DNA of 64,000 bases from Mesorhizobium sp. ES1-1 (GTDB taxonomy: Bacteria; Pseudomonadota; Alphaproteobacteria; Rhizobiales; Rhizobiaceae): NCBI RefSeq assembly GCF_020164785.1, contig NZ_JAIUGX010000004.1:1-64000 (forward strand), written 5' to 3'. The notes under the pieces are model-generated. The model searched no databases. It worked only from the letters and a program-made list of their open reading frames with translations, and was not told where the DNA came from. Every line of letters begins with the position of its first letter. Positions within the stretch are counted from its first letter, which is position 1. The position numbers and the translations under genes were made by a program. Shown piece after piece: positions 5,508 through 16,695 of this stretch.

Positions 5508-7052
5508 ATGGAGCGGTTGGAGCTGCGCCTTCTCGGCTTTCCCCAGTTCCGCCTGGACGGGCGGCGGGTGGAGCTTGCGCTGCGCAAGGCGGCGGCGCTG
5601 CTGATCCACCTGGCCGAGGCCGGCGGACCGATAGCGCGCGATGTCGCCGCCACGCTGCTGTGGCCAGAGGCCGACGCGGACGCCGCACGCGCTCGCCTGA
5701 GGCGCACGCTCTACAAAATCCGCATGGCTTTCGGTTGCGAAATCATCGCCGCCGGCGCGGCGTCGCTCGCCCTTGCCCCCTCGCTGTCCGTCGAGATCGA
5801 CGCAGGCGCCTTCGAGCGCGCCTGCGATGCCGGCCGGTTCGAGGCGGCCGCCGAACTCTACAAAGGCGACTATCTCGCCGGCTTCTCGCTGCCGGATTGC
5901 CCGGAATTCGAGGAATGGGTGTTCTTCCGCCGCGAGGCCTTGCGCAGCCGGCTGATGCAGGCGCTGGAGCGGCTGGTGGAAGCGCGGATCGCGACCGGCG
6001 ATGCCCACGCCGCCGTCCTCCATGCCACGCGGCTCACGGCGCTTGACGCGCTGAGCGAAAGCGCGCACCGCCATCTCATCCGCGCGCATCTGGCGGCGGG
6101 CGACAAGGCGGCGGCCGAGCGCCAGTTAGAAGCCTGCGCGCGGCTGCTGCGCGACGAACTGGGCGTCGCGCCCGACCCCGCGACGCTCGCTCTGCTGCGC
6201 GCGCCGGATGCCGAGGCGCCGAGGACGCGCTATGTCGAGGTCGACGGCATCCACATCGCCTGGCACGCCGTGGGCGACGGCCCGGCCGACATCGTGCTGG
6301 TGCCGGGCTTCATCTCGCATGTCGAGCGCATCTGGGAAGACCCGCACTGCCGCGCCTGGCTTGATGCCGTGTCGCGGCTCGGCCGGCTGATCCTGTTCGA
6401 CCGGCGCGGCATGGGCCTGTCCGACCGCGTCGGCGCCAGCCCGACCGTGGAGGCGACCGCGCGCGATATCATGGCGGTGATGAACGCCGCAGGCAGCCGC
6501 CGCGCCTTGCTGGTCGGCGCCTCCGAGGGGGGGCCGGGCTGCATCCGCTTCGCCGTCGACCACCCCGGCCGGCTGAGCGGCCTGGTGCTGTGGGGTTCGC
6601 TCGCCAAGGGCAGCCGCGCGCCCGACTATCCCCACGCGCTCACTCCGGCGCAATACGACCTCTGGCAGCGGCGCCTGCTGGCCGGCTGGGGCGGGCCGGC
6701 TGAAATCGAGACCTTTGCGCCAAGCGTCGCCAGCGACCGCCAGGCGCGCGTCTGGTGGGCCGGCCTGCTCAGGGCCGCCTCCAGCCCAGGCGCCCTGGCC
6801 GGCCTGCTGCGCGCCCTGCGCGACGCCGACGTGCGCCCGCTTCTGTCGAGGGTGAAAGCGCCGACCCTGGTCCTGCACCGCAGCGGCGACCGCGCCGTGC
6901 GCGTCGAGGCCGGCCGGGACCTGGCGGCGCGCATAGAAGGGGCGCGATTCGTCGAGGTAGCGGGGGAGGACCACTGGTTCTGGGTGGGCGAGCAGGCGAC
7001 GCTGCTGGAGGGGATTGGGGGGATGGTGCGGGGTGGCAAGAGCGCCCGCTAA
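5508..7052 (+). CDS. BTAD (SARP-like) domain fused to alpha/beta hydrolase
   Basis: A 514-residue two-part protein. Residues 1 to about 235 form a short wHTH-like start (LELRLLGFPQFRLDGRRVELALRKAAALLIHLAEAGGPI, with WPEADADAARARLRRTLYKIR) and a bacterial transcriptional activation (BTAD) helical repeat (ALERLVEARIATGDAHAAVLHATRLTALD). Residues about 240-514 are an alpha/beta hydrolase: VPGFISHVERIW, FDRRGMGLSDR, the nucleophile elbow VGASEGGPG, and HWFWVG with the likely catalytic His. Proteins of this architecture are annotated as adenylate-cyclase-like or SARP-family regulators; DNA binding and hydrolase activity are both inferred. The ATG at 5508 was chosen because the homologous reading begins MERLELRLLG. 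Confidence 0.85.
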   Translation: MERLELRLLGFPQFRLDGRRVELALRKAAALLIHLAEAGGPIARDVAATLLWPEADADAARARLRRTLYKIRMAFGCEIIAAGAASLALAPSLSVEIDAGAFERACDAGRFEAAAELYKGDYLAGFSLPDCPEFEEWVFFRREALRSRLMQALERLVEARIATGDAHAAVLHATRLTALDALSESAHRHLIRAHLAAGDKAAAERQLEACARLLRDELGVAPDPATLALLRAPDAEAPRTRYVEVDGIHIAWHAVGDGPADIVLVPGFISHVERIWEDPHCRAWLDAVSRLGRLILFDRRGMGLSDRVGASPTVEATARDIMAVMNAAGSRRALLVGASEGGPGCIRFAVDHPGRLSGLVLWGSLAKGSRAPDYPHALTPAQYDLWQRRLLAGWGGPAEIETFAPSVASDRQARVWWAGLLRAASSPGALAGLLRALRDADVRPLLSRVKAPTLVLHRSGDRAVRVEAGRDLAARIEGARFVEVAGEDHWFWVGEQATLLEGIGGMVRGGKSAR

Positions 7053-7274
7053 ACCTGGTCGTCAAAGCGGCGTTCGCCGAGCTGCTTTCCCCATCGCGCA
7101 GGCTCCGATTGCCGCGACGCACTCAACTCGTCTTACCATGCCGCTGGACCGGCGAAGCAATCCTGTCGTAAGCGGGGCGACATCGCAAGGAAATTGGCGC
7201 TCCTGCGCACAGGCTGCAAGCCGGCGTGAGATTTGCCGCCGACGCAGAGGTGCCAGTCGCGAGGACGCCGTGCG

Positions 7275-7706
7275 TCAGTTGATGATCTCGCCTCGCTTGT
7301 TCGTACGCAGGGCGGCCAGTCGCTCTCTCCACATCTGGAGCGCCTCCTGCGTCAACCGTGTCCACTGCGTGATCTCGCCGACGACCCTGAGTGGTGCGCT
7401 GCTGCGATAGGAGCGGGTGGGATTGCCGGGAAATTTCTTGTCCGTCACGTTCGGGTCGTCTTCGTACGGCCCGGTCGGCTCGACGACATAGACACGTGGG
7501 ACCGCGCCGCGCCCGGAAAGCTCCGCCGCGATCTCAGCAGCAAGCCCGGCACCGTCCACAAGAGCGGTGAAGTAAACATGGTTCATGATCACCTCGGGAC
7601 GATAGTTGGAGCGGTATCCTGCCGTGAGCAAGTCACCCACGCGTAGATCCGCGATCGTGCCGTGAAAGAACGGCCCTTGCTGCGGCGCTTTAGTCATCAC
7701 GCTCAT
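7275..7706 (-). CDS. arr: Rifampin ADP-ribosyltransferase (Arr family)
   Basis: A 143-residue protein with the full Arr signature: FFHGTIADLRVGDLLTAGYRSNY, NHVYFTAL, VYVVEPTGPYEDDPNVTDKKFPGNPTRSYRS and PLRVVGEI. Arr enzymes transfer ADP-ribose from NAD to a hydroxyl of rifamycins and so inactivate the drug in the cytoplasm. Length matches the family. The ATG overlaps the stop of the upstream VOC gene by 4 nt (ATGA), so the two are co-transcribed and translationally coupled. Chromosomal arr genes are widespread in soil bacteria and need not imply clinical resistance; activity here is inferred from conservation. Confidence 0.93.
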   Translation of the reverse strand: MSVMTKAPQQGPFFHGTIADLRVGDLLTAGYRSNYRPEVIMNHVYFTALVDGAGLAAEIAAELSGRGAVPRVYVVEPTGPYEDDPNVTDKKFPGNPTRSYRSSAPLRVVGEITQWTRLTQEALQMWRERLAALRTNKRGEIIN

Positions 7707-8086
7707 GCGCTGTTCAGATGGAGGATGTTGCCGTCGGGGTCCTTTAACCAGACCATCTTGAACCCGTTCGCATCGTGGACCCCGTCCTTGTAGGACACGC
7801 CTTCCATCTCATAGCGCTCGAAGGTCACGCCCTTGGCACGCAGGTCGGCGACGATGGCGTCGATATCTTGTCCGCAGTCCCACACCACGGCATTGGCCTT
7901 GTTGGTGCCCGCGGAGTCCGAAGGGTAGACGACGAGATGCGTCGCACCGGTCTTGTAGACCAGCACGCCTTCCATGGCTTCGTCGTTGAGTTCAAGTCCC
8001 AGCACATCGCTATAGAAGCGCCTTGCCCGATCGAGATCGCTGACCGCGACAATGGCCGAGGAAGATTTTGCGTTGAATGCGTTCAT
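7703..8086 (-). CDS. VOC-family protein (glyoxalase/bleomycin-resistance fold)
   Basis: A 127-residue protein with the VOC start SSSAIVAVSDLDRARRFYSDVLGLEL, a central HLVVYPS strand and the end GFKMVWLKDPDGNILHLN, which carries the usual metal-binding Glu position replaced in part by the HLN terminus. The ATG at 8086 follows an excellent AAGGAGGAAT site 5 nt upstream. The gene overlaps arr by 4 nt and is the first gene of that operon. VOC proteins bind or modify small molecules, including some antibiotics; here the substrate is not known, and only the coupling with arr hints at a role in drug tolerance. Confidence 0.85.
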   Translation of the reverse strand: MNAFNAKSSSAIVAVSDLDRARRFYSDVLGLELNDEAMEGVLVYKTGATHLVVYPSDSAGTNKANAVVWDCGQDIDAIVADLRAKGVTFERYEMEGVSYKDGVHDANGFKMVWLKDPDGNILHLNSA

Positions 8087-8167
8087 GGAATTCCTCCTTG
8101 ATTGACACCCAAAGGACGTATGGCCGGCTCCGGTTCCGACATTCGGGCGGACGGCAGAATGCAGAAA

Positions 8168-8197
8168 GTGAGACATCGAAGGAGGCCCCGGCGCGCC
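8168..8197 (+). repeat. 30-bp repeat, left copy
   Basis: The sequence GTGAGACATCGAAGG-AGGCCCCGGCGCGCC matches 15316-15345 at 28 of 30 positions in the same orientation. The two copies bracket the accessory segment that includes the graspetide-type genes. The matched sequence is not part of any gene I accept. It may be a mobile-island boundary or simply a dispersed intergenic motif. Confidence 0.6.
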
Positions 8198-8370
8198 CTG
8201 GGGGTGGTTTGATCCAAGCTTGGACTGCACGCGCCCCGCTGCCGGTCGAACGCTTCGCTTGGCGTCATATGCAAATCGATTGGCGGAAAGCGCCAATGAT
8301 CAAACGCGGCAGGTGGCATAGCGTGATCTTACCCGGCCAACATCGGTCCCGGCCAGATGGAGTAAGACAC

Positions 8371-9339
8371 ATGAACAATCTCATCAAGGATGCCCTGCTG
8401 ATCCCGGTCAGTGATCCGAGCCAGACGATCTCGATCAACCCCGTGGTCCTCCAGGTCGAAAACCGCCCGATCCCGCTCGAACTGCGCATCACGGCGCCTG
8501 TGATCGGCGACAAGCTGCCAGTGGTGCTGCTTTCGCATGGCCATGGGCCCTCGCTCTACCTTCCGTCGAAAGATGGCTATGGGCCGCTCGTCAATTTCTA
8601 CGCAGAGCATGGCTTCGTCGTGATCCAGCCAACCCACCTCAATTCGAAGGTCGCGGGCATGCCGGCCGATTCTGCGGGCGGCCCGCTCTTCTGGCGCTCG
8701 CGCGTCGAAGACATGACGGCCATTCTCGACCAGCTCGACACGATCGAGGCTGCCGTCCCGGCAATCGCGGGCCAAATCGATCGCAGCCGCGTCGCTGTCA
8801 TCGGCCACTCGATGGGCGGGCAGACCGCAGGCCTTCTGCTGGGCGCGCGGCTGACCGATCCGAACGATCCGGACGCGCAGAACATCGACATGCGTGAACC
8901 GCGCATCGCCGCGGGGATCATGCTGACGGCGCCCGGCAATGGCGGGGCTTCGCTGAGCGAGATGGCGGCGAGCCGCTACTCCTTCTTCAACCCCGACTTC
9001 TCCCATCTGACCACCAGGACCCTGGTGGTGATCGGCGATGAGGACGCCTCTGCGCATCTGACGGTCCGTGGTCCGGCCTGGCATGCCGACGCCTTCCATG
9101 ACAGCCGCGGCGCGGACGCCCTCATGACAATTATCGGCGGCAAGCACGGCCTCGGCGGCATAGCGGGCTATGATGCCAAGGAAACCGACGATGAGGACCC
9201 GGAGCGCCTGGAGATCGTCCTTCGAACGACATGGGCCTATCTGCGCTCGGCCTTGTACGAGGGCGACGACGCCTGGACGGTGGCAAGGCAGGCGCTCGTC
9301 GCGCATTGCGCCGACCATGCCCGGGTCGAGCTCAAGTGA
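8371..9339 (+). CDS. Alpha/beta hydrolase (chlorophyllase/dienelactone-hydrolase-like)
   Basis: A 322-residue hydrolase. Visible features are VVLLSHGHGPSLYLPSKDGYGPLVNFYAEHGFVVIQPTHLNS (oxyanion-hole HG region and strand), VAVIGHSMGGQTAGLLLGARL (nucleophile elbow G-H-S-M-G) and LVVIGDEDA with a late His (GGKHGLGG) completing a Ser-Asp-His triad. There is no signal peptide. The ATG at 8371 has GGAGT about 8 nt upstream; upstream in-frame starts extend through the repeat and were rejected. The AraC-type regulator follows on the same strand after 123 bp and probably controls it. Confidence 0.85.
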   Translation: MNNLIKDALLIPVSDPSQTISINPVVLQVENRPIPLELRITAPVIGDKLPVVLLSHGHGPSLYLPSKDGYGPLVNFYAEHGFVVIQPTHLNSKVAGMPADSAGGPLFWRSRVEDMTAILDQLDTIEAAVPAIAGQIDRSRVAVIGHSMGGQTAGLLLGARLTDPNDPDAQNIDMREPRIAAGIMLTAPGNGGASLSEMAASRYSFFNPDFSHLTTRTLVVIGDEDASAHLTVRGPAWHADAFHDSRGADALMTIIGGKHGLGGIAGYDAKETDDEDPERLEIVLRTTWAYLRSALYEGDDAWTVARQALVAHCADHARVELK

Positions 9340-9462
9340 CATGCGCAGGCCGGACCGGGCAACGTGATGGGCGCGCCCCGCTCACGCAACACCGGGCCGT
9401 GGCGCAGCACAATGCGTCACGGTCTTGACCGCCAAATCAAGCTGGGCTGATGATGTGCCGAG

Positions 9463-10482
9463 ATGACAAACAGCATTCCCGACAAATGCCGCCTGCAGCA
9501 GTCCTTCTGGTCGGCGATGCAGGCGACCGGCCTGAACCCGGTTGCGGTGCTGCGCCAGGCCCGCTTGCCGGTGACGCTGCACCTCGATATCAGGCGCTTC
9601 GTCAGCACCGCGCAACTGTTCTCCCTGTGGACCGCGATGTCGGACCTCGCGGGGGACCCGGACTATTGGCTCCGCTTTGTTCAGGCGACGGAATCGGTTG
9701 GCCACCAGCCCATGTTCGTGGCCGCATGCCACGCCTGCGATTTCCGCGACGGCATCAAGCGCGTCGCGCGGTTCAAGCAGTTCACGATGCCGGAGCGGAT
9801 CACGGTGGAGGAGCGCGGTTCGGAGGTCCATATCCACAAATATTGGTTTCACGCCGAAGCGTTGGAACCGGACCTCTCGGTCGATGTCAGCTTCGCGTTT
9901 CTGCTGTCGCTTGGCCGGCGCGGCACCGGCCAGCGACTGACCCCGCTGCGGCTGGAACTGACCCGCAGCGGTGCGCCGACCGCCGCACAGGACAGCTTCT
10001 TCGGTTGCCCCATCGTCCCAGGAAAAGCCAACGACACGCTCGTGTTCAAGGCGTCCGATCTCGATCGCCCGTTTCCCGGCTACAATGCCGAGCTGATCGA
10101 AATCATCACCCCCGCGCTGGAGGAAAGCCTTAGCCGGCTGAGGCCTCGCAGCTCGTTCTCGGAGCAGGTCAAGGCCGTGCTGAAGCGCGGCTTTGCCAGC
10201 GGGCGCCCCGAAATCTCCGCTGTGGCGCGCAACCTCGGGACGAGCGAGCGCACCTTGCAGCGGCGCATCACCGACGAGGGCGGCAGCTTTCGGGCGCTGG
10301 TGCAGGAGGCGCGAAAGGAGTTGGGTCACAAGCTGCTCTCGGACCCCGATGCCGATGTCGCGGAGGTCGCCTGCATCCTCGGGTTCCAGGACACCACCTC
10401 GTTCTACCGGGCATTCCGCAGCTGGGAGGGCCTCAGCCCCCAGGCCTGGCGCAGCCGCAACGCAATGATGCAGCCAGGCTGA
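9463..10482 (+). CDS. AraC-family transcriptional regulator
   Basis: A 339-residue regulator. Residues 1 to about 200 match the arabinose-binding-like sensor domain of the OruR/ArgR-type AraC subgroup (LDIRRFVSTAQLFSLWTAMSDLAGDPDYWLRF, HYW-like pocket segments). The C terminus carries the two AraC helix-turn-helices (ISAVARNLGTSERTLQRRITDEGGSFRALVQEARKELG and VAEVACILGFQDTTSFYRAFRSWEGLSPQAWR). It probably controls the hydrolase gene just upstream, in response to a small ligand that I cannot name. Confidence 0.9.
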   Translation: MTNSIPDKCRLQQSFWSAMQATGLNPVAVLRQARLPVTLHLDIRRFVSTAQLFSLWTAMSDLAGDPDYWLRFVQATESVGHQPMFVAACHACDFRDGIKRVARFKQFTMPERITVEERGSEVHIHKYWFHAEALEPDLSVDVSFAFLLSLGRRGTGQRLTPLRLELTRSGAPTAAQDSFFGCPIVPGKANDTLVFKASDLDRPFPGYNAELIEIITPALEESLSRLRPRSSFSEQVKAVLKRGFASGRPEISAVARNLGTSERTLQRRITDEGGSFRALVQEARKELGHKLLSDPDADVAEVACILGFQDTTSFYRAFRSWEGLSPQAWRSRNAMMQPG

Positions 10483-10535
10483 GGCACGCGCGCGCAGCCG
10501 CGCTGTGCGCAATCGGTCCGACACCTTCGCCTGCG

Positions 10536-10613
10536 GCGGGGGAAGGCCACTGAGTGGGCGAGCAGGCGGCGCTGCTGGTGGGGATTGCGGGGATAGTGGG
10601 GGTGGACGACTGA
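10536..10613 (+). pseudogene. Decayed copy of the 3' end of the BTAD-hydrolase gene
   Basis: Read in frame this short piece gives AGEGH, a stop, then VGEQAALLVGIAGIVGVDD and a stop. It corresponds to AGEDHWFWVGEQATLLEGIGGMV at about 6958-7030, the end of the gene at 5508. The nucleotide match covers most of the 78 bp, with a 6-nt loss at the W-F-W position. It is a remnant of a duplicated or paralogous hydrolase and is not expressed as a protein. Confidence 0.65.
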
Positions 10614-10953
10614 TTTGCGCCCCGCATCTCGGCCTTCAACTCCAACATCACAGCTTGAAAGCAGACGCTGCCGGAGCATGAACTGTAGGTGTAGTGCGCG
10701 TCCATTTTGGACAGCGGCCAACCCTGCTTTTTGCCTTGGACATCACCTTTGTCGCTAGCTCGGTCATCATTAAAATAGCACCCGCTTGCAAACGCGGATC
10801 AGTAGCGAAATAATATGGCTTCTAAGCAGAGCAAAGCGCTGCCATCATATTCAGAGGGCTGCGAATTGGGCGGAGTGAAAACAGGTAGCCCGCGCAGCGT
10901 TGCAGCCCGGTGGGATTAGACGAGCGTTATTCACACCAACATGGAGCGAGTCC
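10614..10953. other. Intergenic leader region of the graspetide-type locus
   Basis: No gene is recognised in these 340 bases. Base composition drops visibly relative to the left flank, with A/T-rich patches near 10760-10820. The stretch contains one plausible sigma-70 promoter, listed separately, and a long untranslated leader before the small peptide gene. Confidence 0.5.
10786..10814 (+). promoter_or_regulatory. Candidate sigma-70 promoter for the graspetide-type genes
   Basis: TTGCAA at 10786-10791 is followed after 17 nt by AATAAT at 10809-10814. Transcription would begin near 10821, leaving a leader of about 130 nt before the GTG at 10954. This is pattern matching only. Confidence 0.35.
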
Positions 10954-11196
10954 GTGAGCGACAAGAAGACCTATGTGCTAGGCGAAATCGAAGGCGGAAA
11001 AATCGATAAGCCGTTTATACTCAAGTGGGCTGTAAAACACGATGTTAAGTCGGCTGATGGTCATACGAGTGTCTTCTCGGACACAGCGATGACGAATGGT
11101 GACACCTTTTCGCAGGTCGTGCCATTCGGGGAAGGCGTAGGATCGACCGCGCCTGCCGGCGGAGGGCCGGGTGAGTTGGGTGATACCACCATCTAG
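10954..11196 (+). CDS. Candidate graspetide (RiPP) precursor peptide, 80 aa
   Basis: I start it at the GTG at 10954, because GGAG lies 7 nt upstream, giving MSDKKTYVLGEIEGGKIDKP as the N terminus; an in-frame ATG at 10900 has no such site. The first 34 residues are charged, with KPFILKWAVK at about residues 18-27. The last 46 residues contain no Lys but many Thr, Ser, Asp and Glu (SVFSDTAMTNGDTFSQ, GELGDTTI) and a Gly/Pro-rich segment. The gene lies 9 bp before an ATP-grasp ligase of the peptide-maturase type, the usual place of a precursor. PFILKW loosely recalls the PFFARFLE leader motif of microviridins, which binds the ligase; that link is an inference. I do not recognise a known precursor family. 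Confidence 0.65.
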   Translation: MSDKKTYVLGEIEGGKIDKPFILKWAVKHDVKSADGHTSVFSDTAMTNGDTFSQVVPFGEGVGSTAPAGGGPGELGDTTI

Positions 11197-11205
11197 ATAC
11201 TAGAG

Positions 11206-12243
11206 GTGACCGACGCTCGGGTTCTAATTTTTTCCTCACTTAATGAGGTTTGCACAGATCATGTAATCCACCATTTGAAGGATTTTGACGCCGAGGTGCT
11301 CCGCGTTGACTATGAATTCGCAGCTTCCTCGCATCTTTGGACGGCAAATATAGGGCAAGGCGGTCCATCGTTTCGGATCGAAAACAAGGAAATTGCCGAT
11401 TTTCAGCCGACTTCTGTATGGATGAGGCGTTGGGGCTTTCCCATCTATCCGTCAAGTTTTGACGAAGTTTCCACAATGCTCGCTTTCAGCGAGTTGTCCT
11501 CTTTACTTTCAGGATTGCCCCACCTTGATGATTGCTTTTGGCTCAATAGGCCAGATAGAGAAAAAATTGCGTCGAATAAAGTGCTGCAACTTACCACTGC
11601 TCAAAGCATTGGGTTCGTGGTGCCGCCAACGGTTATTACGAATAGCGCATTGGAGGCTTTAGCCTTCTCCAAGAACGTTGGACGCACGATTTTCAAAGCT
11701 GTCTCGGCCTCCCAAGTTCCCTTACGTAGATTTAACCAGGCCGCCTTCAATGCTCTATCTCCAACCGAGAGAAGTAAATTCGACTTTGGTTTTAAATACG
11801 AAACAGAGTATATGTATACGAGAGAATTAACGGAAGATATGACGGGTTCGCTCTATGAAACTCTACGATGGTCGCCGGCCATTTTTCAAAAACGTATAGA
11901 GAAAAGAAGCGATATCAGAGTCACAGTAGTGGGGAGAAAAATCTTCGCGTGTTCGATAGACTCACAGTCACGGGAAGATACCAAGACAGATTTCAGATTT
12001 ATGAATGTGTCAGGTCTTTTGCCGCACGTGGCCGTTGAGTTAGGTGACCGTGTTAATGACATGGTTTTTTCTTTAATGGATCGGCTGGGATTGCACTTCG
12101 GATGTATCGATTTTGTGGAAGACACCAAGGGAGATTTGGTGTTTTTGGAAATCAACCCGTCTGGTCAGTGGCTATGGATAGAGCAGCTTACTGGGATCGC
12201 CATCTCAAAGGCGATCGCCTTGGCCTTAGTCGAGGCAGACTAA
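11206..12243 (+). CDS. ATP-grasp peptide maturase (MvdC/MvdD-like, graspetide synthetase)
   Basis: A 345-residue ATP-grasp ligase. The N-terminal half has the peptide-maturase layout (ARVLIFSSLNEVCTDHVIHHL, then SVWMRRWGFP and the FWLNRPDREKIASNKVLQL block). The C-terminal half has the ATP-grasp core: FKAVSAS, FQKRIEKRSDIRVTVVGRKIFACSIDSQ, and the hallmark GCIDFVEDTKGDLVFLEINP followed by SGQWLWIEQLTGIAISKAIA. The phrase EINPSGQWLWIE is diagnostic for ligases that make ester or amide side-chain links in microviridin-type peptides. The start is GTG at 11206, 9 bp after the stop of the putative precursor; the ribosome site is weak, suggesting coupling. Base composition is near 45% GC by eye, far below the neighbours, indicating horizontal origin. 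No second ligase, acetyltransferase or exporter is adjacent. Confidence 0.88.
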   Translation: MTDARVLIFSSLNEVCTDHVIHHLKDFDAEVLRVDYEFAASSHLWTANIGQGGPSFRIENKEIADFQPTSVWMRRWGFPIYPSSFDEVSTMLAFSELSSLLSGLPHLDDCFWLNRPDREKIASNKVLQLTTAQSIGFVVPPTVITNSALEALAFSKNVGRTIFKAVSASQVPLRRFNQAAFNALSPTERSKFDFGFKYETEYMYTRELTEDMTGSLYETLRWSPAIFQKRIEKRSDIRVTVVGRKIFACSIDSQSREDTKTDFRFMNVSGLLPHVAVELGDRVNDMVFSLMDRLGLHFGCIDFVEDTKGDLVFLEINPSGQWLWIEQLTGIAISKAIALALVEAD

Positions 12244-12454
12244 GCCCGTCCAAGCACATTCCGGAGGGCTCCAGCAGAATGTCGGCTTTTGCCAATCACA
12301 TGCTGCCACCGGGTCTTCCGGAAATGGCCCCTTTATTCCGTGTTTCTGGCAGTCCCGTTTCTCCTTTGGCCGATGAAGCCCCAGGAGAGGGAATTGGGTC
12401 ACTCTCAATCCGCCAGCGCTGGCTGGCACCACGGAGCTGGAAGGCGGGCAGACG

Positions 12455-12478
12455 CGTGAGGGTAAGCACCCTCTCACG
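12455..12478 (+). other. Imperfect hairpin downstream of the ATP-grasp gene
   Basis: CGTGAGGGT at 12455-12463 can pair with ACCCTCTCACG at 12468-12478, leaving a 2-nt bulge and a short loop. There is no T-run after it, so it is a poor intrinsic terminator. The rest of the roughly 280-bp gap before the next gene shows nothing I recognise. Confidence 0.4.
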
Positions 12479-12523
12479 CAAAAGCAGACCGACGGTTTAG
12501 CACCGTATAGATCGATACCGGAG

Positions 12524-13129
12524 TTACGACGCTAAGCTGCTCCAATCGAAGGACGCCAACACTTGGCCGAACGTTATCGCGCTGGGAATAAGTAGCAACA
12601 AGATGCCGAGGCAATAAGCCACGAGCGCGGCCACTCTGCTTTTCGAACGCGAGACATTAAGGAGCCGATAAAGCTCTCCCATTGGATCTGCGAGGCAATT
12701 CGGATCGATGTCCCGTATTGCGCCCTTGTAGCTGAAATCCGGCGCGTCGTTAGCCAGCGGCTCTGTCTCTGTTCCCAATCTGATTAGCTTTAAGAGATAG
12801 TCGTGGTTTCGTGGTTGGCTGAAATAGGCTTTCTCGGCGTCGAAGAAGGCCGCGGCCGAGTCATATTTTTTGATGAGCGATGGGCATCTAATGCCGTACA
12901 GCGCTGCCCCTGTCGCGATCGAACAGGCGCCGAGATACAGCAACAGAAGCCGTACCGATGGGACACATTCGGTTTGCCCACAAAATTCGGTGTGTATGCT
13001 AAGATATTGTACGATTTGGGCGTTGAACAGCAGGAGATAACCTACGAGAGGTACCACAATGGTCGCCGAAGCAACGCGGGAGTTTCCCAAACGCCGGAGA
13101 ACACTCCATCTCGATCGATGATCTAACAT
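12524..13129 (-). CDS. Hypothetical membrane protein, 201 aa
   Basis: Three hydrophobic segments are visible: about residues 20-42 (ASATIVVPLVGYLLLFNAQIV), 60-80 (VRLLLLYLGACSIATGAALYG) and 166-190 (VAALVAYCLGILLLLIPSAI). Between the second and third lies a soluble loop of about 85 residues rich in Asp, Tyr and Leu. No family is recognised. It is transcribed toward the ATP-grasp gene and shares the lower GC of that stretch, so it may have arrived with it. A link to peptide export or immunity is possible but unsupported. Confidence 0.65.
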   Translation of the reverse strand: MLDHRSRWSVLRRLGNSRVASATIVVPLVGYLLLFNAQIVQYLSIHTEFCGQTECVPSVRLLLLYLGACSIATGAALYGIRCPSLIKKYDSAAAFFDAEKAYFSQPRNHDYLLKLIRLGTETEPLANDAPDFSYKGAIRDIDPNCLADPMGELYRLLNVSRSKSRVAALVAYCLGILLLLIPSAITFGQVLASFDWSSLAS

Positions 13130-13310
13130 TCGCCTGCCCTCATTCTGCGCGGGAAATTACTAGTCATGCTATGTCCTCCGCCCGTCTTCAGTCACCCCGA
13201 GAAGCTCTCGACAACCGCTATTGGGTGGAAAGAGACTGTAGGCTTTTGGTAGGCTAGCGGGAGACCTGGCTGTCGGATAGTCTGGGAGGTCGCCGGGGCG
13301 CGCCCGTCAA

Positions 13311-15006
13311 CTAGATCGCAATATTCGGATCAATCCACGCGGCCAAGTCGGCAAGAATCTTCTTGAAGTCTGGATGTGCGGTCTGCCACGCAGGATCACA
13401 AAGCTTGTTCAGCACCACTTCCGGCGTTGCCTTTCCCGTCATCACCCCAAAGCACCGTTCCAAATCACCCGGCCACATTAAAATCAGGTCGGTGGCACTC
13501 AAGTGCTTCTGGATTTTCTGCCGTGCCTTCGTTGTCATAGGCTTGACAGCTCCATCTGGCAGCAAGTCCTCGTCTGTCAGCGCGCACCATCGGATGCCTA
13601 GCTGCTTGGAGATGGAGGTAAAGGCAGGGATTGCCCCGATCACCACACTGCGTAATGCTTATCGATCGCCCGTCATAGTCGACGCCGGTCTTTTCGAAGC
13701 CCAGCCGCGTCGCGAAGCCGTCGTCCTTGCCCTCGCAGAAAATGGCGCCGTTGCTGAACAGGAAGTCATGCGCACCCCGCTCGTCGAGCTTGGACTGGAG
13801 CTTTGCTTCGGGATCGATCGAATCCGTGTGAACGGTCCCGCACAACACCTTGCCGCCGTGGCGAACTAGGCGGTGGATCACCTGCTTGGAATCGAAGGTG
13901 ACCAGTTCCGGCGAGTGCGTCGTTATGACGATCACCCAACCCTTGTCAGCAAGGCGAGCAAGAACCTTGCGGATTCGCCGGCGTAGGTGGGGATGCAGGT
14001 GGGTTTCTGGCTCCTCAAGCAGAAGCACTACCCGTTCCTTGATAAGGTCTTTGAACTCGGTAAGCGCCTCCAGTGCCGCCAGTCGGATCACTGCCTGCCA
14101 CCCATCACCCATACTACGGAGCGGAGTCGGTGCACTCTCCGGATCTGTCGCCAGCGAAATGGCAAGCTGCTGCGCCAGCCAGTCCTCAATGACTTGCGTG
14201 CTGGGCTTGAGGTCGATTTGGGCGGGCGCGCCCACGTAGCGTCCGAAGATTTCCTCAAGCTTGGGCTTCATTTCATTCTTCCAGAACGGGAAGTCATCGA
14301 CGGCTCTGCGAAAGAAACCGTATGCCGCGTGTAAGGCGTCGGGCATTTTGCGACTCCCGCCCGGTACTTCGAGCACCCAATCGTCAACGAGGAACCGCTG
14401 GGCCAGCAGCTTCGATAGCTTCTGGATCGGGCCCGTTCTCCAAACATACAAAGACGCCTCGATGTTCTGCGGCTTAAATAGCCAGACCTCGGGCATAAAG
14501 TCGTAAATGTCGTCGAGGCGAGCGTTCACGGGCCGGTAGTTCACGTCATGCTCCGCAAACCTCTGCTTGTCGCCAACGCTCAGCGGCGACCTGGTGGAGA
14601 TCGTGATGCTTTGCAGATTTGAGTCGAGCAATGTGCGGCTGCAACTGATCTTGCCGGCCTTCGTCCTCTTGCCCTTCATCTGAACGCCATAGACGACTTG
14701 TACCGCCCCCACGCCATGAACCGCCGGGTACCCTTCCTCACGATCGGCACTGAATAGCACTCGGATCACAAACTCGTTGACGCGGCTGCCATTGGTGTCG
14801 ACATAGAAGTCCATCTCTTCTGCAGTCCATTGGCTGAACGACGGGTTGTTCAGAGTCAGCGCGATTGCAGTTAGTACCGTGGATTTGCCAGCGTTATTCG
14901 AGCCAATGAGCAAGGTTGGAAACCCATCGCGAAGATCAAACTCCATGTTGTCCACGCCGCGAAATTTCCTGATAACAATCTTCGAAAGCTTGTAGTCGAT
15001 CGCCAT
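13311..15006 (-). pseudogene. OLD-family ATP-dependent nuclease, frameshifted
   Basis: The N-terminal part (from ATG 15006, preceded by GAAGGG) is an ABC-type ATPase of the OLD family: KFRGVDNMEFDL, Walker A GSNNAGKST, Walker B VVLLLEEPETHLHPHLRR and the H-loop VIVITTHSPELV. It then enters a TOPRIM nuclease domain (SNGAIFCEGKDDGFA). At about 13645-13660 the frame is lost: this reading continues as unrelated sequence to 13465. The expected continuation, IGAIPAFTSISKQLGIRWCALTDEDLLPDG with the TOPRIM D-x-D, is present in another frame and runs to the stop at 13311. Both parts together give about 564 residues, normal for a class 1 OLD protein. No UvrD-like partner (as in Gabija) is adjacent. It may be a dead defence gene or contain a sequencing error. 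Confidence 0.85.
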
Positions 15007-15315
15007 CTTCGAATCCCTTCAACAAGCGAAGTATTCGCACCTTTGCGGATTGGCCGGAAGACGACCTTTCGCGGCTAGGCGTTTAACGAATGCAGTCTCG
15101 TCCGGTTGCCGCTATAGCGATCAGGTCGCTCTTCGTTTGAGCCAAAATCGGATGTCTTTGAATGGCAAGTTTCGGTCGGCGTACGCAGCATTCCGAACGG
15201 TGACAAGGGGCTCGGGTGCCGAACGGCGGCTTTCTGCGTCGATTAATCAGAACCGGACAGCCCGCACTCGGTCCCAAACCGGTCGCTCAGACATGCGCCT
15301 TCTCTAACGCACAAG
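15007..15315. other. Intergenic region beside the OLD gene
   Basis: No gene is supported in this stretch. A short plus-strand reading frame at 15050-15307 has no ribosome site and an Arg/Ser-rich composition typical of a chance frame. Confidence 0.5.
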
Positions 15316-15345
15316 GTGAGACATCAAAGGAGGCTCCGGCGCGCC
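15316..15345 (+). repeat. 30-bp repeat, right copy
   Basis: Matches the copy at 8168-8197 in the same orientation (GTGAGACATCAAAGG then AGGCTCCGGCGCGCC), with two differences. It sits about 60 bp from the stop of the flavoprotein gene, where GC content returns to the chromosomal level. Confidence 0.6.
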
Positions 15346-15402
15346 AAGGCGCCTTCCGGGCCGCCGCCATCGAAGCCGCCCGATCAAGCTTCCCCCCGCC
15401 CG

Positions 15403-16695
15403 TCACCTCGCCACCGCGCGCAGGCGCACCGCACTCTCGGCCGTGCTGTCCAGATACGCCGCCAGATGCGCGGTCAGTTCGCGGGCGTCGTCTTCGGCGC
15501 CGTGGATGAAGCTGGATTTGCGGCGGCGCAGATAGGGCAGGCCGAGCACATAGAGGCCGGGCATGGCGACGATGCCGCGATCGTGCTTGAGCTGGCCCCT
15601 GGCGTCGAAGACCGGCAGGTCCAGCCAGGAAAAGTCCGGCTGGAACCCCGTGGCCCACAGCACGGTGCTTATGTCTTGGCCCAGTTGCAGCGCCAGCGGC
15701 AGCGCCTCGGGGATCTCGGTGGCGGCAAAGCGCTCGGCGGGGCCGATGCCTTCGGGCCTGCTGGCCTCGGCCCATTGGTCGATCGAGGCCAGCAGCCGGT
15801 TCATCTTCAAATCGGCCAGCGCGCAGACATTGCGCAGCGACCCGGAAAACTGCGCCGTCGCGCCGCGCATGCCGGCCAGGCGCCCGACGATCCGCACGCC
15901 CTGCCGCTGCAGCAGGTTGAGGTCGAGCGTGGCGCGCTCTTGCGTGCCGGCGAGCTGCGGCGAGGGCACCCTGCGGGCGCGGTCGGGGTCGTCCACCTCT
16001 TCGATGCGCTGGTCCAGCGCGCCGGTCGCCAGCATCCACCATTGGATGTCGCGCTGCCGATAAAGGCGCGGCAGCCGCACATGTTCGCCCACGGCAAGGG
16101 TGACTGGCCTTCCGCTGAGCTGGATCTCCTGCGCCAATTGCAGGCCGGTCGCGGAGGCGCCGACGACCAGCACACCGCCGGGGGCAAGCTGGCGCGGATT
16201 GCGGTAGGCCTGCGCAGGGAGCTGTTCGATGGCGGCGGGGATGGATTCAGCCAGGCGCGGCACGGACGGTTTGGAGAAGGCGCCGGACGCCAGCACGACG
16301 GCCCGGCACAGCCAGTCGCCGCGCGGCGTCTCCACCCGATAGCCACGGCTGCCGCGCGAGACCCTGCCGACAGGGGTGCGCGTCAGCACCGGCGCGGAAA
16401 ACGATTTGGCATAGGCGGCGATGAAATCGGCGAGCGCCCCGGCGCGCATATAGCCGTCCGGGTCATCGCCCCGGTAGGCATGGCCGGGCAGCCGCGCCAT
16501 CCAGTTCGGCGTCAGAAGGCGCATCGAGTCCCAGCGCTGCGTGCGCCAGCTGTTGGCGATCTCGCCCTGTTCCAGAACCACATGGCCGATCGAGCGCCGG
16601 CCAAGCAGGCAGCTCATCGCCAGGCCCGAATGGCCGGCGCCGATGACGACGACGTCAACGGTGCCGGCGATGGCGCGCTGTGCGCGTCTGCTCAT
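15403..16695 (-). CDS. Flavin-containing monooxygenase-type FAD/NAD(P) oxidoreductase
   Basis: A 430-residue flavoprotein. The FAD-binding motif is VVVIGAGHSGLAMSCLL at about residues 14-30, followed by WRTQRWDSMRLLTPNW, the substrate-side block of FMO/CzcO-like enzymes. The NAD(P) motif is VLVVGASATGLQLAQEI near residue 175, and the late motif is VLWATGFQPDFSWL, the usual ATG-x-x-P near the C terminus. The ATG at 16695 overlaps the OsmC stop by one base (TGATG), so the two genes form an operon. The substrate is not known; with OsmC next to it, a role in peroxide or sulfur-compound handling is possible. Confidence 0.88.
   Translation of the reverse strand: MSRRAQRAIAGTVDVVVIGAGHSGLAMSCLLGRRSIGHVVLEQGEIANSWRTQRWDSMRLLTPNWMARLPGHAYRGDDPDGYMRAGALADFIAAYAKSFSAPVLTRTPVGRVSRGSRGYRVETPRGDWLCRAVVLASGAFSKPSVPRLAESIPAAIEQLPAQAYRNPRQLAPGGVLVVGASATGLQLAQEIQLSGRPVTLAVGEHVRLPRLYRQRDIQWWMLATGALDQRIEEVDDPDRARRVPSPQLAGTQERATLDLNLLQRQGVRIVGRLAGMRGATAQFSGSLRNVCALADLKMNRLLASIDQWAEASRPEGIGPAERFAATEIPEALPLALQLGQDISTVLWATGFQPDFSWLDLPVFDARGQLKHDRGIVAMPGLYVLGLPYLRRRKSSFIHGAEDDARELTAHLAAYLDSTAESAVRLRAVAR

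Follow-up and report, generated by a model that had tools for sequence, protein, structure and literature searches.

A probable minimal graspetide-type gene pair shared by a Mesorhizobium island and a P2-like prophage

Two adjoining genes of Mesorhizobium sp. ES1-1 very probably form a minimal RiPP unit that, judging from their sequences and the modelled enzyme, would make an ester-ringed peptide and travel as mobile cargo to the benefit of the cell that carries it. The pair lies in the window, by which we mean the whole stretch of 64,000 nucleotides analysed here. Most likely it represents a graspetide-type precursor family, new as far as the few core patterns compared show, that has been moved as mobile cargo. 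A precursor with a graspetide-type synthetase is what the preliminary description of this DNA had proposed, and that proposal is now backed by profile matches, a predicted fold, a leader motif and the joint conservation of the two genes. A matching two-gene unit is found in a bacterium and in a prophage of a quite different bacterium, there at a spot for optional cargo. The features of the pair are as follows.

10943..10946, forward strand: GGAG resembling a ribosome-binding site, 7 bases 5' of the GTG start
10954..11196, forward strand: precursor peptide gene, 80 aa, GTG start (list of open reading frames and homology)
11011..11028, forward strand: PFILKW (residues 20-25, in the leader), which fits the Phhx(1,2)h motif
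11074..11193, forward strand: predicted core half, residues 41-80, with a putative boundary
11206..12243, forward strand: graspetide-type ATP-grasp synthetase gene, 345 aa (profiles, PDB match, predicted fold)
12148..12183, forward strand: EINPSGQWLWIE block of the synthetase, residues 315-326, with E315 and N317 (alignment)

The arrangement first described, an 80-aa frame and an ATP-grasp frame on the same strand with 9 bp between them, is borne out by the coordinates of the reading frames. The GGAG supports the start at 10954, and so does the alignment, in which it coincides with the ATG where a prophage homologue begins. A second ligase, an acetyltransferase or a transporter had been said to be lacking next to the pair, and none was found among the eight neighbouring reading frames scanned (7.7-20.9 kb). 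The set had also been called the smallest possible; it does consist of two genes, but it is not unusual, since three of the published graspetide groups (groups 27, 28 and 35, among 24 earlier and 19 new ones) hold only a precursor and a synthetase, and minimal gene content is therefore already known (PMC13097080). Likewise, the sharp fall in GC content claimed for both ends is seen on the left only (about 0.66 to 0.44). To the right the value climbs merely to 0.52-0.60 and regains the host level near 15.3 kb, and this late recovery extends the low-GC stretch to about 10.6-15.3 kb, more than had been thought. The composition of the window synthetase is foreign, with a GC3 of 0.49 against 0.75-0.89 in five other window genes, a set that leaves out the glyoxalase. 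Promoter scans came out at or near chance level, and seven terminator-like sites surround the pair where 2.2 are expected.

The ligase had been placed in the peptide-maturase branch of the ATP-grasp enzymes, and there it stays, as graspetide synthetases outscore RimK in profile and in fold. Pfam returns only sub-threshold matches, to RimK (the best, just under its cut-off) and to MvdD, which together with the appearance of RimK at rank 33 of the fold search would suit a RimK-like enzyme that decorates the peptide with free amino acids or a tag and forms no side-chain rings. We regard such an activity as very improbable, because RimK falls far behind the graspetide synthetases in both profile and fold scores and the peptide has the leader motif; as a first choice, a RimK-type tagging enzyme is ruled out by the profile and fold scores. 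Among the NCBIfam models, TIGR04187 matches the window synthetase at E=1.5e-58, MvdC at 6.7e-47 and MvdD at 2.8e-41, followed by the grasp-with-spasm ligase profiles and, far behind, RimK at 4.6e-13. All of these matches fall below their curated cut-offs (198.5 of 350 bits for TIGR04187, 160.2 of 425 for TIGR04185 and 141.7 of 475 for TIGR04184), and the TIGR04187, MvdC and MvdD models match 12/12 aligned sequences, window included, at 1e-10. PDB sequences that match at E<=0.01 are CdnC (E=6.2e-29), 5ig8 (MdnB), AMdnB, 9bou (PruB), 5ig9 (MdnC) and 7drm (PsnB); PruB, entitled ATP-grasp ligase in the PDB, we take to be a graspetide synthetase. An AlphaFold2 model built on 12 aligned sequences has a mean pLDDT of 82.9 and a pTM of 0.81, and in a Foldseek comparison with the PDB its first 32 ranks are chains from nine entries of AMdnB (7.7e-26), CdnC, PruB, MdnC, PsnB and MdnB, with RimK first met at E=1.3e-14.

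Across the 12 aligned synthetases, the window among them, D302, E315, N317 and R238 are invariant and K164 is nearly so; we take these five to be ATP-grasp core residues, and E315 and N317 are presumed metal ligands. GQWLWIEQ is likewise invariant in 12/12 sequences, a count that is biased because GQWLWIEQ was one of the patterns used to find relatives. The EINPSGQWLWIE block, which had been called diagnostic, is not so for MvdC/MvdD-type ligases, for the three solved synthetases in the alignment differ there, CdnC reading GEFFWLD and both MdnB and AMdnB reading GEWGMLE. By profile and modelled fold, the window ligase belongs with the graspetide-type synthetases, though it falls beyond the bounds of every named subfamily.

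One close and one distant relative were found. The close one is on an IMG/VR contig of prophage origin (IMGVR_UViG_2927256687_000002; loci L020 and L022), whose ligase is 45% identical over nearly its whole length and is preceded, 8 bp 5', by the gene of a 78-aa peptide. The distant one is in Salinarimonas rosea (L001), with a ligase of 35% identity and a 78-aa peptide that has PFVLAF in its leader and IDTTFSF at its end. In a tree of 34 ligases the window groups with the prophage at 100/99, and Salinarimonas joins them at 100/98; the tree leaves out L011 and L014 (partial matches), L028 (the same gene as L018), loci copying the window, the prophage contig or other genes, and L063-L069. Homologues without a neighbouring short gene had been named as the observation that would speak against the pairing. 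Within the clade there are none, a short precursor gene standing next to the ligase in 3/3 members; further away there are some, as no precursor-like frame lies 5' of the ligase in L008, L009 or L035 and only an ambiguous one in L007.

The 80-aa frame is, on the evidence of its sequence relationships, a real gene. The window peptide is 54% identical to the prophage peptide (L020 4753-4989; E=3e-26), with a local score of 199 where the maximum of 2000 shuffles is 53. Common to the two are MS-KKTYV-GE and ID-PF-L-W-VK-D in the leader, and DTA, S, P-GE-VG-T and GGPGEL-DT in the C-terminal half. Third codon positions differ at a frequency of 0.671 and second positions at 0.237, and the precursor dN is 0.37 (NG86) or 0.40 (YN00). 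The precursor evolves more slowly than its ligase (dN 0.37 versus 0.57, NG86), a comparison that goes no further because synonymous sites are saturated. Prophage homology, shuffle scores and codon constraint together rule out a chance reading frame. A weak Pfam match to a transposase (E=0.18) was taken as noise. The Salinarimonas peptide and the prophage peptide are weakly alike, scoring 45 where shuffled sequences give 24.7 +/- 4.6 and 2/2000 shuffles do as well; its likeness to the window peptide is not significant (119/2000 shuffles as good).

A leader motif Phhx(1,2)h has been described in graspetide precursors and is held likely to activate the ligase (PMC8939145). The three peptides of the clade have instances of it, PFILKW in the window, PFVLNW in the prophage and PFVLAF in Salinarimonas, starting at residues 20, 20 and 24. 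On its own the motif proves little, because its loose form arises in 22-31% of shuffled peptides (5-8% for the form with an aromatic end), and in these sequences its fixed place counts for more than its mere presence. In the predicted core half, window and prophage share D43, T44, S53, E60, T65, E74, D77 and T78, of which E60, D77 and T78 recur in Salinarimonas and are candidate link residues. Since the window and prophage cores have no lysine (the Salinarimonas core has one), amide links to lysine are unlikely and ester links between Thr/Ser and Asp/Glu are to be expected. The window peptide lacks the literature patterns TxxxTxxDxxxxDD, TxxxTx(6-10)Dx(1-4)D and KxxxD, the last of which occurs once in the Salinarimonas peptide, in the leader half. 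It also lacks the graspetide core patterns TxKYPSD and TTxxxxEE. The prophage peptide fits a loose core pattern of our own making, as do 533/2000 shuffles. This comparison covers a few testable patterns, where the published lists run to 43 groups and 174 families, and from the regular expressions tested the ring pattern of these peptides is not predictable. In fuscimiditide, Thr donors precede Asp acceptors (PMC12291112), unlike the window peptide, in which the conserved D77 comes directly before the conserved T78.

The window type of precursor is confined to its own small clade, because more distant ligases follow quite different precursors. Sorted by eye, these are TKT..ESDD repeat precursors (L017, L018, L025, L026, L033, L034, L059, L064, L065, L066, L069), Bacteroides-type precursors (L003, L004, L005) and a type of about 125 aa (L024, L027, L029, L030, L031). 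In the last five loci, the ligases of which belong to another clade within the same order, the precursor-like protein has at least about 125 aa and, where whole, ends in ...QDSHPDGFKPGE. Scans of viral contig collections gave a close relative on one contig only, and a scan of one collection of genome contigs gave 14 loci, of which only Salinarimonas joins the clade and L011 and L014 are unplaced. In samples from the family, order, phylum and class, a match was found in 5/394, 10/397, 6/398 and 3/289 genomes (limits 1e-15, 1e-20, 1e-20 and 1e-25; the window's own genome counted in each), and no ligase found there joins the window clade. The prophage cassette has no match in 5,426 E. coli genomes and the prophage precursor none in the plasmid collection. 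Such collection scans find close relatives only, because they require short exact peptide matches.

The IMG/VR contig is, from its gene content, a P2-like prophage: PHROGs and Pfam matches in L022 comprise terminase, portal, gpA, CII, Cox, the CI repressor and integrase. Phages of Klebsiella, Salmonella and Escherichia match about half the length of the record's other half at 83-85% identity (best 10 of 65 phage records), and the integrase is 90-92% identical to Klebsiella phage integrases (best 10 of 422), a resemblance from which we infer an enterobacterial host. The pair lies between the CI repressor and the integrase, a place next to the repressor that points to a product serving the lysogen. 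Its ligase gene has a very low GC content (0.345), and between synthetase and integrase there is a terminator-like stem (L022 11349-11368; 0.9 expected by chance). The CI-integrase interval was compared in eight hand-picked relatives. Four of them have a gene there (L060, L061, L062, L070), encoding a protein without Pfam family in L061 and a DUF4041/T5orf172 protein in the other three:

L060 3618-5315: DUF4041/T5orf172 gene, CI-integrase interval, candidate cargo
L062 3286-4962: DUF4041/T5orf172 gene, CI-integrase interval, candidate cargo
L070 5118-6794: DUF4041/T5orf172 gene, CI-integrase interval, candidate cargo

The remaining four (L071-L074) have none, their CI and integrase genes being 2-77 bp apart, and all ten E. 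coli records listed, of 1918 matches, have a DUF4041 gene in the interval. The variability of the site rests on a small and uneven sample, because the cargo-free relatives are more distant by CI (40-44%) than the cargo-bearing L062 and L070 (about 80%) or L060 (84.7% at the DNA level).

This position is the first of several observations that fit an anti-phage role, in which the ring peptide would be kept in the lysogen and block superinfecting phages, by analogy with the lanthipeptides of Streptomyces. In P2-related phages of Vibrionaceae the interval between CI and integrase is described as an antiviral hotspot, and in P2-like phages that between gpA and gpQ as a second one (PMC9122126); lanthipeptide clusters in defence islands show anti-phage activity (PMC12360287); and the same prophage has at the second site, in its portal-gpA interval, a KAP NTPase gene (L022 2646-4490, reverse strand) that matches the PADLOC candidate PDC-S49 at E=2.6e-24. 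The hotspots are not reserved for defence, however, as such intervals, including that between gpA and gpQ in P2-like phages, also house non-defence genes (PMC9122126); a PADLOC scan of the synthetase gave no match at E<=0.01; and the Salinarimonas pair is outside such sites, with an EamA-type transporter gene following it. We consider an anti-phage function possible, if some way short of probable.

The window copy has a setting of its own, in which the relevant features are these.

10606..15415, no strand: low-GC segment of ~4.8 kb that harbours the pair together with a gene for a 201-aa protein and a disrupted OLD-family gene (GC and comparison with G1158)
12524..13129, reverse strand: gene of a 201-aa protein without Pfam or PADLOC family, a neighbour outside the claimed system
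13311..15006, reverse strand: OLD/GajA-family gene with interrupted frame (reading frames 13465-15006 and 13311-13646), a neighbour outside the claimed system

Colinearity with a genome of the same genus (G1158) holds up to about 7.03 kb of the window and resumes at 15.4 kb. Seven window proteins in between, synthetase and precursor included, have no match in 19.9 kb of that genome, which has about 175 bp in place of window positions 10606..15415. The stretch without counterpart runs in all from about 7,035 to 15,415, as 7.0-10.5 kb differs too; the insertion that brought the pair probably spans 10,606-15,415, because a gene-end remnant at 10536-10605 matches a copy about 175 bp before the right junction in G1158. 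Within the genus, repeated copies of the 3' end of a gene (window 6980-7032 and 10550-10602; L054 14824-15150) mark insertion borders at this locus. Direct repeats of 40 bp (8158-8197 and 15306-15345, 87.5%) were dropped as the ends of the island, the gene-end remnant favouring 10,606-15,415; they may instead bound a larger insertion. A prophage remnant was dropped as well, no phage gene having been recognised among the reading frames scanned around the pair.

The neighbours bear on function in both directions. The OLD gene (PADLOC Old, E=1.5e-34; AAA_15 and a sub-threshold TOPRIM match) would favour the anti-phage role, as would the 201-aa protein, which is 69% identical to rhizobial plasmid proteins (three of the five records with a match) and whose homologue on pRL11 of Rhizobium johnstonii adjoins a GmrSD-type gene near restriction-modification genes. 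On a Sinorhizobium plasmid, by contrast, the homologue follows a protein without Pfam family, and the OLD gene of the window is broken. The longest open frame of that gene has no match in the plasmid collection, common though the family is. The 201-aa protein (compare L083 5983-6603 and L084 5983-6603) looks membrane-like by eye and follows different large genes, of the OLD family, of GmrSD type or encoding a 607-aa protein without Pfam family; it may be a small protein that partners with defence genes of several kinds.

The interrupted OLD gene may mean that the island is in decay, and the pair could then be a relic, a passenger whose expression has been lost. It would fit this that the eight other genomes of the genus listed have no such ligase. 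Both frames are open, though; the start, the conserved residues and the sequence resembling a ribosome site are all undamaged, and the substitutions bear the mark of codon constraint, which with synonymous sites saturated speaks for the lineage and not for the recent past. A relic is in our judgement unlikely.

The same functional ground is contested by a released product, a ring peptide that would harm competitors as a bacteriocin or block proteases in the manner of the microviridins, which are described as serine protease inhibitors. Phages with bacteriocin gene clusters are known, and some papers use the words "phages carry interbacterial weapons". In Salinarimonas the genes around the pair encode RlmN, MnmE, gamma-glutamyltranspeptidase and murein endopeptidase, which is no mobile site and tells against the cargo reading. 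An EamA-type transporter gene follows the Salinarimonas ligase by 73 bp on the same strand (L001 7105-8031, forward), a possible exporter that speaks for export in this organism. Neither beside the window pair nor beside the prophage pair, however, was an exporter, a leader protease or an immunity gene recognised. This reading, too, is possible but short of probable, and about as likely as the anti-phage role.

The minimal ring-peptide unit that we prefer would work as follows. The PFILKW stretch of the N-terminal leader would dock on the synthetase, to judge from the published motif, and the enzyme, with ATP and magnesium, would activate Asp and Glu side chains of the C-terminal half. As in the family at large, Thr and Ser hydroxyls would then attack the activated carboxylates and close one or more ester rings, after which leader removal and export would be left to proteins encoded elsewhere in the cell. 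The function that would best suit both sites is one that helps the carrier, whether against phages or in competition with other bacteria. The bolder proposal of a two-gene ring-peptide antiviral cassette conferred by prophages, moved between enterobacterial P2-like prophages and islands of other Pseudomonadota and endowed with a core chemistry beyond the published groups, strikes us as doubtful.

To our knowledge, few graspetides have a known biological role, and a graspetide pair in the CI-integrase interval of a prophage offers a direct and cheap way into that question. If the product stops phages, RiPP antiviral immunity widens from lanthipeptides to graspetides; if phages are unaffected, a new family of precursors remains, with compact cores and a ring pattern unreadable from the patterns tested. 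Phage-borne graspetides are named in no title among the literature matches listed, a set in which subscription papers were mostly outside scope, and the accessible part of an article on RiPPs and phages makes no mention of them (PMC11118758). The main text of PMC13097080 has no words beginning with phage, antiviral, prophage or mobile, and that of PMC8939145 none beginning with phage, prophage or mobile.

Set beside known systems, the prophage pair shares the CI-integrase position with the antiviral hotspots of P2-like prophages (Rousset et al. 2022, PMC9122126), whose description in the sections available mentions no RiPP cargo, and the window copy differs in lying outside a recognisable prophage. 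The TIGR04187 GRASP_SAV_5884 maturases resemble the window ligase in their whole-length profile match and upstream precursor, and differ in that the window scores 198.5 where 350 is the limit and its precursor has no family match. With MdnB/MdnC and CdnC the likeness is one of fold (Foldseek E 1.6e-16 to 2e-25) and of a leader motif in which proline is followed by two hydrophobic residues, PFFARFL in microviridins (PMC8939145); structural alignments to these enzymes have 21-25% identity, the window has one ligase gene and not two, and it reads GQWLWIE where they read GEFFWLD or GEWGMLE. The window core also lacks the microviridin core motif. Closest in habit are the TKT..ESDD graspetides, plesiocin-like by eye, of other Alphaproteobacteria and of Leptospira phage vB_LalZ_80412-LE1, which like the window clade have a precursor directly 5' of the ligase and records in phages. 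Seven ligases of this type form a separate clade (100/100) in the 34-row tree, the phage ligases lying outside that tree. Because repeat-type graspetide-like pairs are found in the Leptospira phage (L064 2679-3960) and in an unverified faecal phage contig (L065 2428-3957), phage carriage reaches beyond the window clade, in company with precursors of a different make, mostly about 100-185 aa long and built of repeated acidic cores.
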